The notes beneath the pieces were generated by a model. The model was not told the DNA's origin and did not search any database. It was given only the letters and a program-made list of their open reading frames with translations. From Bacteroidota bacterium (GTDB lineage Bacteria; Bacteroidota; Bacteroidia; Palsa-948), in assembly GCA_016213435.1 (NCBI GenBank), contig JACRAL010000015.1, positions 1-63,488 of the forward strand: a stretch of 63,488 nt of DNA, given 5' to 3'. This document shows positions 1 through 53,231 of the stretch, one piece after another. A program made the position numbers and the translations under genes. How positions within the stretch are numbered: position 1 is the stretch's first letter; each line of letters starts with the position of its first letter.

Positions 1-225
1 ACGAAGCGCCCCCAACGTTAAACGAAGCGCCCCCAACGTTAAACGAAGCGCCCCCAACGTTAAACGAAGCGCCCCCAACGTTAAACGAAGCGCCCCCAAC
101 GTTAAACGAAGCGCCCCCAACGTTAAACGAAGCGACCCCAACGTTAAACGAAGCGACCCCAATGCTCAACGAAACGACCCCAATGTTAAACGAAACGACC
201 ACAACGTTAAACAAAGCGCAGGAAG
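1..225. repeat. 21-bp tandem repeat array, truncated by window edge
   Basis: Ten consecutive 21-bp units (starts at 1, 22, 43 ... 190) begin ACGAAGCGCCCCC and close with AACGTTAA. The first six are identical. Units 7-10 collect substitutions (GCGC to GCGA, then AACGACC, AATGCTCA) and an eleventh, decayed unit starts at 211. Each unit junction carries the near-palindrome CGTT-A-AACG. There are no variable spacers, so it is not CRISPR. The array probably continues left of the window. Two of the three plus frames are open through the unit, but no start or gene context supports coding. Confidence 0.95.
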
Positions 226-658
226 CAGCAATCAGCAATCGCCCCTTTGCAACATAAACCCGCCTTTGCTGCTTTGATTGCGCTGAGAAGCAGGGGATGG
301 ATGGTAACAACAAATTAAAATTGCAAGCTCCAAGTTCCAAATTCCAAGATGGAAGGTTTTGTTTTTTTTTCTTGGGATTTTTGGCTTGAGACTTGAAACT
401 TGGTTCTTTGGGATTCTAAAACTTAAAACATAAACCTCTAACCTCTATTTTAACGTGAGTTCCGGAACAAATTTTGGCTAAAGCTGGAGCGTTATAGGTT
501 ATCACGTATTAAGAGTTAACTACGATTAATTAATCGCCTGTTATCACAATAAAGACATTTTCGTATCATTGCGGAAATGTCTTCATTGTTTTTATGAGCC
601 GAGGATATACTGATCGGACAGAATGTGACTTGTGATTTGATTAAAAAATCTATTCAAT
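226..658. other. Intergenic region without a recognisable gene
   Basis: No credible ORF or RNA gene is seen in this stretch. It holds an imperfect inverted repeat with arms at 330-349 (CCAAGTTCCAAATTCCAAG) and 385-403 (CTTGAGACTTGAAACTTGG) around a T-rich loop. The same CTTGGTTCTTGG-type wording recurs inside aroE at 17826-17864. The 3' part (about 540-600) is AT-rich and may hold the promoter of the methyltransferase at 659, but no clear TAnnTTTG box is present. Confidence 0.6.
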
Positions 659-16469: not shown

Positions 16470-17573
16470 CTAAGGAAAATATTTTTCTTTTACCTTGAGT
16501 ATGGGTTTCTCTATAACAACGTAGGAAAAATGAGAAATGACAATCGTGAGAGCAAGTGATGCGGCAATGAGAATCAGAAGCGAAATCAAATTATTAATAT
16601 GAAATCCTGTCATAAGAAAGATCAGGTAAAGAATATTGATAATGGTAATGTGATAAAGATACATGCCGTAACTGATCTTTCCAAAGTAAGACAGAATGTT
16701 TTGTGTAGGAATTTGTAGTGTTGATTTCTGTGGAATGAATAGTGCAATTAATAGCGTAAAACAAATCCCCTGAATTGTTGGATATAGTAAATAGAAGATA
16801 TTGTTCTTAGGAAGCAGAGGTTGTAGGATAAAGGTCAGAGGGATAACTAATAGGATAAATACCCATTTATATACATTGGGAATGGAGAGTGTAAAGGAAG
16901 ATGTCTGTAGATTTTTGGTTGCAGTCCGGTAACCGAGCAAAGCTCCCATTGAAAATAGATCAGTGCAGGAAATAAGTTCTGTCCCTGAGAAATCGGTAGA
17001 ATGAAAAAATAAAAATGCTGCTGTTTTCACAAGAATGGAAGTGCTAAATAATGCGATAAGTACAACTGGAATCCGTTTCAATGAAGCATAGGTGATTATG
17101 AATGGGAACAACAGGTAAAAATGCTCTTCAATGCATAGAGACCAGTTCATTGATAAAGGTGTAAGGCTGGATAACTTGTTTTCGGATATTATTTTGTAGT
17201 TTTCCGAAAAAGTAAATGAGTACAGCCATTCGTGCTTGTATCCAAATTGATTATATAATCCTAATTTATTTATTATATCAAAAGGCAGAATGAAGAACAC
17301 AATTAAAAGCACATAATATATCGGCCATATTCTCAGGACGCGTCTTATGAAAAATTTCTTTAGGTCAACAGAATTAGTGTGGATTTTCTCCTGAATTAAA
17401 AAAAAAGAAATAAGAAACCCGCTAAGGATGAAGAAAAAGTTCACGCCATTTGCTCCCCATTTATTAAAAGAGGTATACCATGTAATTCCAAATGCAGGAA
17501 TATGTTGAAGAAAAACCAGAAGAAATGCAAAGAAGCGAAGCGCGTCAATCGTATGAAAATGATTTTTGTTCAT
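16470..17573 (-). CDS. Acyltransferase family 3 (OafA/YrhL-like) membrane protein
   Basis: A polytopic membrane acyltransferase (about 367 aa, ten or so helices) that O-acylates surface glycans. The signatures are HTIDALRFFAFLLVFLQH (catalytic-type His in the first helix), FFILSGFLISFFL, FFIRRVLRIWPIYY and WSLCIEEHFYLLFPF. The frame opens three codons earlier at a TTG, but the ATG at 17573 overlaps the aroE stop as ATGA, a typical coupled start, so that start is chosen. It ends 37 bp before uvrB, which has its own promoter. The acceptor is unknown. Confidence 0.88.
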   Translation of the reverse strand: MNKNHFHTIDALRFFAFLLVFLQHIPAFGITWYTSFNKWGANGVNFFFILSGFLISFFLIQEKIHTNSVDLKKFFIRRVLRIWPIYYVLLIVFFILPFDIINKLGLYNQFGYKHEWLYSFTFSENYKIISENKLSSLTPLSMNWSLCIEEHFYLLFPFIITYASLKRIPVVLIALFSTSILVKTAAFLFFHSTDFSGTELISCTDLFSMGALLGYRTATKNLQTSSFTLSIPNVYKWVFILLVIPLTFILQPLLPKNNIFYLLYPTIQGICFTLLIALFIPQKSTLQIPTQNILSYFGKISYGMYLYHITIINILYLIFLMTGFHINNLISLLILIAASLALTIVISHFSYVVIEKPILKVKEKYFP

Positions 17574-18370
17574 GAATTCCAAATCTCCCAGGCTTTTTCT
17601 GCTTGCAGATGTAGCATCTCTAATCCGTTTTTAATTTGCGCGCCTTTTTCTTTCCCTTTTTTCAGAAACAGAGTTTCTTCCGGATTATAGGTCAGGTCGT
17701 AGAGTAAATGTTTTGAAGTAAGAAACTCGTAAGGAATATCCGGACAATCATTTATGTTTGGAGACATTCCAAGTGGAGTAGCATTAATAATCAAAGCATA
17801 TGAGGTGATTAAAGCTTCATTCAACTCTTGATACTTTATACTTGGTTCTTGGTTCTTGGTTCTGGACGCAAACAAGAATTCTATTTTGAGTTTTTGTAAA
17901 ACAAATGCAACTGCTTTAGATACTCCTCCTGTACCAAGGATCAGTGCTTTAGCATGAGAATCTTGAAGTAAAGGTTTAAGTGAGTTCTTGAAGCCGAAAA
18001 CATCGGTGTTGTAACCTTTCAAGTAGATGTCATTGCGAGCGAAGCGAAGCAATCTGTTTTCTTTTTTGTGAGATTGCTTCGGGCTTTTCCCTCGCAATGA
18101 CGCTTTAATGCAGTTTACCGCCCCGACTTCCCTTGCCGATCCATCAACCTCATCCAGAAACTTTATCACACTTTGCTTGTGTGGAATAGTAATGCTTAAT
18201 CCGCAGAGAGTGGGATTATTTTTAATAAGAGCAGGGAAATCATTTATGTCTTCAAGCGAAAAGTTTTTGAACTCGCAATCAGTAATGTTTTCCCGCTTGA
18301 ACTTTTCTGTGAAATACTTTTGAGAGAAAGAGTGGGAGAGAGGAAAGCCGATGAGTCCGAAGCTACGCAT
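17570..18370 (-). CDS. aroE: Shikimate dehydrogenase with two repeat-derived insertions
   Basis: A 266-aa NADPH-dependent reductase of 3-dehydroshikimate. GLIGFPLSHSFSQKYF (N-terminus, shikimate binding), SITIPHKQSVIKFLDEVD (catalytic Lys), GAVNCIK, GYNTDVFGF, LILGTGGVSKAVAFVL (NADP site) and INATPLGMSP are all present. Two stretches are foreign to the family. RGKSPKQSHKKENRLLRFA is encoded by a family-A palindrome (18029-18101) just before GYNTD, and RTKNQEPSIKYQELN by a CTTGGTT repeat (17826-17864). Both keep the frame. It shares ATGA with the acyltransferase downstream, and follows DedA across a family-C repeat. Confidence 0.93.
   Translation of the reverse strand: MRSFGLIGFPLSHSFSQKYFTEKFKRENITDCEFKNFSLEDINDFPALIKNNPTLCGLSITIPHKQSVIKFLDEVDGSAREVGAVNCIKASLRGKSPKQSHKKENRLLRFARNDIYLKGYNTDVFGFKNSLKPLLQDSHAKALILGTGGVSKAVAFVLQKLKIEFLFASRTKNQEPSIKYQELNEALITSYALIINATPLGMSPNINDCPDIPYEFLTSKHLLYDLTYNPEETLFLKKGKEKGAQIKNGLEMLHLQAEKAWEIWNS
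17826..17864. repeat. CTTGGTTCTTGG-type simple repeat in frame in aroE
   Basis: The sequence contains CTTGATACTTTATACTTGG then TTCTTGGTTCTTGGTTCTGG. It is translated on the minus strand as RTKNQEPSIKYQELN, a segment foreign to the NADP-binding domain of shikimate dehydrogenases. Similar wording occurs in the intergenic inverted repeat at 330-403. Confidence 0.6.
18029..18101. repeat. Family A palindromic element inserted in frame in aroE
   Basis: It begins GTCATTGCGAGCGAAGCGAA and ends CCCTCGCAATGAC, with inner complementary words GAAGCAATCTG and GAGATTGCTTC. Overall it is a 73-bp imperfect palindrome. It is translated in aroE with no stop. Another copy lies at 53149-53231 between genes, and a partial one at 56424-56466. 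Confidence 0.9.
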
Positions 18371-18377
18371 ATGTTTT

Positions 18378-18433
18378 GCCCCTTCCCTAAAGGGAGAAGG
18401 AAGTTTTTACTCCTCTTTAGGGGCGGGGGGCGG
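18378..18433. repeat. Family C palindromic element between dedA and aroE
   Basis: CCCCTTCCCTAAAGGG at one end and CCTCTTTAGGGGCGGGGGGC at the other are related inverted halves. The element covers the DedA-aroE gap and reaches into the DedA gene: the last DedA residues (APRP) and its TAA stop are encoded by it. A related copy is inserted in tsaE at 58475-58555. Confidence 0.75.
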
Positions 18434-19055
18434 TTTTTTTATGTTTTATCACTTCAATAATGATAGGAAGTACGGATAGAAAAATAATTCCCAGTGCTAC
18501 CAATTCGATGTTCTTTCTAATCCATGCTATTTCGCCAAGGAAATATCCGGCAAAGGTCAGACTCAGTATCCAGATAGCGCCTCCGAGAATATCGAAGGGA
18601 AGAAATTTTTTGTAATCCATTTCAGCTATGCCCGCCACAAAAGGAGCGAAGGTGCGCACTATTGGAACAAATCGTGCCAGGATGATTGTTTTAGTTCCGT
18701 ATTTTTCATAGAAGGAATGTGTCTTGTCAAGGTACTCCTGCTTCACAAAGTTTTTCCCTTTTAGTTTTAATTTCAAAATTTTCAATCCGATGGTTCTGCC
18801 AATCCAGTAGTTTGAATTATCGCCTATGACTGCTGCAGAAAACAGAAGCAGAACCAAGACACTCATGTTCATGTAACCAAGCCTAGCAAATAGACCTGCC
18901 GTGAATAAGAGGGAATCGCCCGGAAGAAAGGGAAAAACAACTACACCCGTCTCAACAAAAATGACAAGAAATAATATTACGTAAACAGCAGTGTCGTACT
19001 GCTGAAACAGCCACTCGAAATCGAGATGAAGAATGTGTTTGAATAGTTCTACCAT
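18417..19055 (-). CDS. DedA family membrane protein
   Basis: A 212-aa DedA/SNARE-associated (VTT domain) membrane protein. Marks are ETGVVVFPFLPGDSLLFTAG (conserved acidic and proline helix-loop), GDNSNYWIGRTIGLKILK, and YGTKTIILARFVPIVRTFAPFVAG (the RFxPxxRT motif). DedA proteins recycle or flip polyprenyl and phospholipid carriers in the inner membrane. The C-terminal residues APRP and the stop are encoded by a family-C repeat, so the natural C-terminus has probably been replaced. It follows the rhodanese gene by 6 bp, in the TPR-comA-aroE run. Confidence 0.9.
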   Translation of the reverse strand: MVELFKHILHLDFEWLFQQYDTAVYVILFLVIFVETGVVVFPFLPGDSLLFTAGLFARLGYMNMSVLVLLLFSAAVIGDNSNYWIGRTIGLKILKLKLKGKNFVKQEYLDKTHSFYEKYGTKTIILARFVPIVRTFAPFVAGIAEMDYKKFLPFDILGGAIWILSLTFAGYFLGEIAWIRKNIELVALGIIFLSVLPIIIEVIKHKKTAPRP

Positions 19056-53148: not shown

Positions 53149-53231
53149 GTCATTGCCAGCGATAGCGAAGCAATCTGCTTTGCTACATAATTACAGTAAG
53201 ATTGCTTCGATTCTATCTCCCTCGCAATGAC
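53149..53231. repeat. Family A palindromic element, intergenic copy
   Basis: It begins GTCATTGCCAGCGATAGCGA then AGCAATCTG and ends GTAAGATTGCTTCGATTC then CCCTCGCAATGAC, with the same ends as the copy inside aroE (18029-18101). It fills most of the gap between the convergent flippase and aroB genes, 6 bp from the aroB stop. Confidence 0.88.

Follow-up and report, generated by a model that had tools for sequence, protein, structure and literature searches.

Within a 63,488-nt stretch of DNA (the window) from the draft assembly of an environmental Bacteroidota bacterium (3.7 Mb, 216 contigs, 97% complete), the gene for shikimate dehydrogenase, aroE, occupies positions 17570..18370 of the minus strand as an ORF of 266 aa with an ATG start at 18370, and its product matches profile PF08501 at 5.9e-19. 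Upstream lies a gene for a DedA-type membrane protein (18417..19055, minus strand), named by eye, whose adjacency to aroE is conserved in the genus. Three repeats sit in or at aroE, where a preliminary description of this DNA had placed them, with coordinates now adjusted: repeat A at 18029..18102, repeat B at 17827..17863 and repeat C at 18379..18433, all on the minus strand. At the left end of the contig, which is an assembly break, window positions 1-252 hold a period-21 tandem array (ACGAAGCGCCCCCAACGTTAA, about 10 copies, 93% matches). Comparisons drew on the genome bearing the window (G000) and its congeners G001-G006, a genus set of seven, and AroE was aligned across these and about two dozen other Bacteroidia. 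The alignment delimited two unusual stretches in the window protein, here called loop A and loop B, and relatives were neither identical in these stretches nor free of repeats: they differ exactly there and carry repeats genome-wide. All three repeat types are real, each being a genome-wide family rather than a chance resemblance.

Repeat A is a CGTC-tagged REP dimer, composed of two inverted CATTGCGAG...GAAGCAATC units arranged head-to-head, with the CGTC tag extending the element to 18102. It is inserted in frame and encodes ASLRGKSPKQSHKKENRLLRFARND, within the hairpin between AVNCI and GYNTD; loop A (counted from AVN to NTD) spans 40 residues in the window AroE, compared with 18-23 in most relatives, and the excess is the REP dimer. 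The first half-unit (CATTGCGAGGGAAAAGCCCGAAGCAATC, 18072..18099, minus strand) agrees at 27 of 28 positions with the one found at this site in G002, while the inverted second half-unit (CATTGCGAGCGAAGCGAAGCAATC, 18031..18054, plus strand) has a G002 counterpart with a different, 15-nt-longer tip. An nhmmer model matched repeat A at 1.9e-15, this same copy having been among those used to build it, and an Rfam search of the region returned no match.

The REP family extends well beyond aroE. Three half-units were found in the window against 0.00 expected from 100 shuffles, and 51 in the whole G000 genome, where a reversed control pattern gave 0; half-units occurred in all seven genus genomes (4 to 51 each). 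A second dimer of the family lies in an intergenic position of the window (53149..53231, minus strand). Inverted pairs were found in aroE, metH and most intergenic copies, and the tagged end reads CGTCATTGCGAG or TGTCATTGCGAG at nearly all copies. Units begin with ATTGC and end with GCAAT, with tips from a few to more than 20 nt, nested hairpins included, and a TCTCA-like tail. At two G000 loci (L042 and L043), REP units overlap the predicted N-termini of two exported proteins, and at L042 a family-C-like stretch (FSPLFWRGAGGEVSAQ) lies at the same N-terminus as the REP. Five genes in the assembly match the Y1_Tnp profile, and among these five no transposase linked to REPs was found. Only the gene on contig C41 was seen close to a REP dimer (1 kb), and its flanks carry GTCCC..GGGAC repeats, not REPs; contig C173, which bears the best Y1 transposase match, holds no REPs. 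The C41 gene (L083, 3280-4000) is of the Y1 type, has GTCCCGTTAGGGAC-type short palindromes on both sides, and plausibly represents a RAYT with a REP family of its own. Contig C173 (4.5 kb) carries a perfect (AACCCAG)16 array of 114 bp (L084, 841-954) and has an odd tetranucleotide profile (0.80).

The aroE REP was present in G000 and G002 only. In a UvrB tree with topology ((G000,G001),(G002,G003)),(G005,G006), in which the G002-G003 pairing had 92/93 support, it was absent from the respective sisters G001 and G003, implying either two losses or two gains at one codon. Both aroE REPs begin at an identical codon, and their first half-units have in common a tip, GGGnAAAGCCC, that is missing from all other listed units; this favours one origin followed by two losses. 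Synonymous difference between G000 and G002 was 0.26 inside the insert and 0.75 outside it (pS; Nei-Gojobori dS above about 1.5 was saturated, so only pS and pN are quoted). So low a value is unlike simple neutral inheritance and suggests homogenisation with other copies, later transfer or two insertions. A comparison of G000 and G002 aroE in 60-nt windows gave no sign that the aroE segment as a whole had been converted or transferred between them, and in the windows adjoining the insert G000 was as close or closer to G001.

Two further explanations of repeat A bear on these data. An assembly or sequencing artefact might be suspected in a draft of this many contigs, but the element recurs at the identical codon in a congener that was assembled separately and shows its own divergence, and all inserts keep frame, which makes this extremely unlikely. 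It is also highly doubtful that the inserts are useful, with an mRNA hairpin or a basic loop tuning expression or activity. The low synonymous divergence within the insert could be read in that way, as could the stable RNA hairpin predicted for repeat A (-36.7 kcal/mol, z -7.6), although such strong folding is expected because the element is a palindrome. Moreover, of the six congeners that have this gene order or loop, five lack the insert, and other repeats replace the REP.

Repeat B is a period-7 tandem array of GAACCAA/GTATCAA units that codes RTKNQEPSIKYQE in an NADP-domain loop after the SR motif. The preliminary description had noted a CTTGGTTCTTGG repeat here; a repeat is present, but its unit is 7 bp rather than CTTGGTTCTTGG as such. 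Exact periodicity (CTTGGTT, 3.3 copies) runs from 17841 to 17863 and is degenerate onward to 17827. As the array lengthens loop B by only about 3 residues, it represents loop rewriting as much as insertion, and a homologous period-7 array with other units occupies the same place in G001 aroE. In a 463-kb sample of G000 (12% of the genome, partly made of contigs picked for bearing REPs), 17 period-7 arrays were found, none of the other periods between 4 and 20 gave more than 3, and 12 of the 17 lay inside ORFs of at least 200 codons. Across three genus genomes this was true of 21 of 42 arrays, the unit at a given place differing by species. Among ten other Bacteroidia, none of 15 7-bp arrays lay in long ORFs, but 13 of the 15 came from one 20-kb block of one genome, making this a weak control for in-gene arrays, and a Fisher value computed from it was set aside. 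An unrelated genome, G291, has thirteen different 7-bp arrays within 12 kb (L318, 7039-18950), and at L280, L282 and L328 period-7 arrays form the hydrophobic parts of apparent signal peptides.

Repeat C is a GC-rich palindrome (CCGCCCCCCGCCCCTAAAGAGG...CCTTCTCCCTTTAGGGAAGGGG) of the CCTTCTCCCTTTAGGGAAGG type at the dedA/aroE junction, where it provides the final codons and stop of dedA and lies between the two genes in a 46-bp spacer. In G001, G004 and G005 repeat C is absent and the dedA stop overlaps the aroE start (ATGA). Patterns of the type CTCCCN3-5GGGAG gave 52 two-strand matches in the same REP-enriched 463 kb of G000, compared with 2 in 400 kb from the ten other Bacteroidia that served as control for family C. 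The aroE of G002 (L004) lacks a start codon at the usual place, and a family-C-like sequence is seemingly translated at its N-terminus (NLQPPLGRGVRTFGLIG).

The preliminary description left open whether an enzyme so interrupted still works, a question that can be answered in part and, from sequence evidence, in the affirmative. The window AroE matches TIGR00507 at 1e-47, the match being split at the insert, and scores 162.5 bits, short of the curated cut-off of 200.2. An insert-free AroE elsewhere in the assembly (contig C126, 262 aa) also falls under this cut-off at 164.9 bits, so the shortfall seems due to the Bacteroidota branch rather than to the insert. A PDB structure search returned AroE as the nearest solved structures (5dzs, E 1.2e-22), and the AlphaFold2 model of the window protein has a mean pLDDT of 88.7, with values below 50 solely at residues 96-111, the REP-encoded hairpin tip between strands 87-92 and 115-120. 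As modelled, the REP insert is a disordered loop on an otherwise intact AroE fold. Residues K65, N86, D123 and Q256, which we take to be catalytic, are invariant across the AroE alignment, as is the NADP glycine motif GTGG (146-149). Between G000 and G002, both with the insert, aroE with the insert excluded has pN 0.155 and pS 0.75, the same regime as uvrB, rsmA and dedA, indicating that the gene outside the insert is under strong purifying selection. Taken together, the window AroE most likely still works as an enzyme.

The C126 gene is thus a second aroE in the assembly, on a compositionally odd contig. Its presence without inserts would fit a decaying window aroE from which the C126 copy had taken over, and breakage of this kind can be pointed to in a distant relative, G062 (a congener of G019 with a one-contig genome), in which a family-C-like insert at the same loop gives in-frame stops. 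We nevertheless consider decay quite improbable. The tetranucleotide correlation of C126 to the window is about 0.80, against 0.99 for equal-sized window pieces, and although C126 is rich in repetitive surface proteins, which weakens this composition test, a contaminant or recent arrival is more likely than a replacement. None of the congeners has two aroE genes, and the insert-bearing gene is under purifying selection, being the sole copy found in G002 (78% complete). The split of loop A in G062 (L130, about 1350-1560) may be natural breakage or a read error.

Loop A hosts different repeats in different genomes. Besides the REP of G000 and G002, it carries 7-bp arrays of differing units in G001 and G005, and 7-bp arrays again in two other families (G011 and G093; G145). 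In G019 it holds a family-C-like element, shorter and with the frame kept, and in G081 a CTTCGGCTnCGCTCAG element occurs in both loops, two of its 3 copies in 200 kb being in aroE. Among 124 distinct loop A sequences, a period-7 array was present in 5 and arrays of other periods from 5 to 11 in none. One locus, L013, carries an odd insert.

Other core genes behave similarly. In G000, REP copies lie in frame in the genes for MetH, for a class I methyltransferase and for a TPR protein, and a MeaB-like GTPase has a family-C-like stretch. RsmA (immediately ahead of the catalytic NFPY), UvrA, HisRS (immediately ahead of ARGLNYYTG), WaaA (with two) and an acyl-CoA-reductase-like protein carry 7-bp arrays; these names were given by eye from conserved motifs rather than by profile search. 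In metH, G000 and G004 share the codon at which a REP dimer sits, G003 has a family-C element (read at the ends of two contigs), and the loop is short in G001, G005 and G006; the methyltransferase loop has a REP in G000, AAGTCAA arrays in G004 and G006, and neither in G001, G003 and G005. Unrelated repeats thus occupy the same loops in different species in aroE, metH and the methyltransferase gene. The rsmA loop has one length in six of the seven genus genomes, with a 7-bp-periodic or 7-bp-like sequence whose unit varies between species, and the array of G005 (L344) is broken by an extra 10 residues that include a GGAAATATTTCC palindrome. One TAA was reported within the 1-264 search match of that same G005 gene. 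A mutational hot spot particular to aroE, as once proposed, is not supported by these data, since metH, rsmA, uvrA, hisS, waaA and the methyltransferase gene show the same pattern. The companion proposal of a tolerant protein is supported for the two loops: the REP residues are the sole low-confidence stretch of the model, and the loops vary and carry other repeats in other families.

Such recurrence might reflect targeted insertion, the loops being preferred landing sites to which, for example, 7-bp arrays or their DNA structure attract REPs, with repeats exchanging at fixed addresses. REPs and 7-bp arrays alternate at one loop in two unrelated genes, the G005 rsmA palindrome lies within a 7-bp array, and REPs share a codon between species in both metH and aroE, all of which would be in keeping with targeting. 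However, insertion-tolerant loops are few in any protein, so that survivors must recur there, and odd details common to the recurring elements (the GGGnAAAGCCC tip in aroE, the GATTCC/GGAATGAC arm in metH) suggest common descent rather than repeated insertion. No target motif was found, and we regard targeting as unlikely. Loop tolerance, we infer, is the cause of the recurrence.

The explanation we favour, and hold to be probable, is that repeats insert and slip neutrally, with loop tolerance as the filter. All three families would have reached aroE by ordinary repeat traffic and been kept because their sites fell where the enzyme does not care. A CGTC-type REP dimer would have inserted in frame, adding about 25 codons at the tip of the hairpin joining two active-site segments and giving a disordered, basic loop; in the NADP-domain loop, replication slippage would have expanded the 7-bp array and re-homogenised it; and the GC-rich palindrome would have landed at the dedA/aroE junction, lengthening the spacer. 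The same process would operate genus-wide, placing REP dimers, period-7 arrays and family-C palindromes in loops of many core enzymes that tolerate them. On this reading aroE is not an exceptional hot spot, nor is it a gene in decay. A bolder variant, which we also regard as unlikely, casts the fixed addresses as repeat-exchange sites: 7-bp arrays would mark or generate an address, palindromes of the REP or family-C kind would come and go there in frame, and gene conversion with other repeat copies would keep the copies at one address alike. If this were true, protein loops would owe their rewriting to repeat traffic and not to point mutation. Under neutral insertion and tolerance, the loops show at which places a genome can take up repeat DNA and leave the enzyme intact, and sister species with unrelated repeats in the same loops offer natural replicates for studying the conversion of repeat DNA into protein sequence, the movement of REPs and the question of which enzyme loops are truly free to vary.

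Several known systems resemble parts of this picture. Rickettsia palindromic elements (RPEs; the CGTC-1/CGTC-4 REPs of Rickettsia conorii) are described in PMC3733652, citing the original RPE papers, as CGTC-ended short palindromes lying in frame in genes of likely working proteins, with dimers coding 20-30 residues, and in that account Di Nocera 2013 places RPEs with other CGTC-tagged REPs. Similarly, the REP of the window genus appears inserted in frame in aroE, metH, the methyltransferase gene and the TPR gene; unlike RPEs, it occurs in a Bacteroidota host, and its loops take in 7-bp arrays and another palindrome family as well. By analogy, the aroE REP would work like an RPE, although we do not file it as one. 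The CGTC-tagged super-family is outlined in the same source as having a CGTC (or TGTC/CCTC) end and mostly head-to-head dimers, with units of an 8-9 bp stem, A-T first, a loop of 4-5 nt and a CCA tail; it spans several phyla, including Bacteroidetes, with intragenic copies known and no dedicated transposase found (PMC3733652). Genus REPs share the CGTC tag and the head-to-head dimers, but their half-unit tips vary widely (nested hairpins) and their tail is TCTCA-like rather than the CCA of that outline. Two Xanthomonas species are noted there to have REPs at about the same site in recB (PMC3733652), a site common to two species as here, except that here unrelated families share the site, and in at least 3 genes. 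For the arrays, 7-bp units are summarised as outnumbering the other long SSR classes in most of the genomes examined, with polymerase slippage proposed (Mrazek 2007, via PMC4679880 and PMC4692102), and the heptanucleotide sets described in these accounts (Beggiatoaceae, Xanthomonas, Nostoc) are mainly intergenic (PMC4679880, PMC4692102). The genus arrays have the same unit length but differ in that half lie in ORFs of at least 200 codons. Within the open-access literature, we found no described precedent for unrelated repeat families alternating, from one sister species to another, in the same core-enzyme loops. Protein-coding palindromes, best known from Rickettsia, are here found in Bacteroidota together with in-gene 7-bp arrays; the ingredients are ordinary, while their combination and recurrence are unusual.
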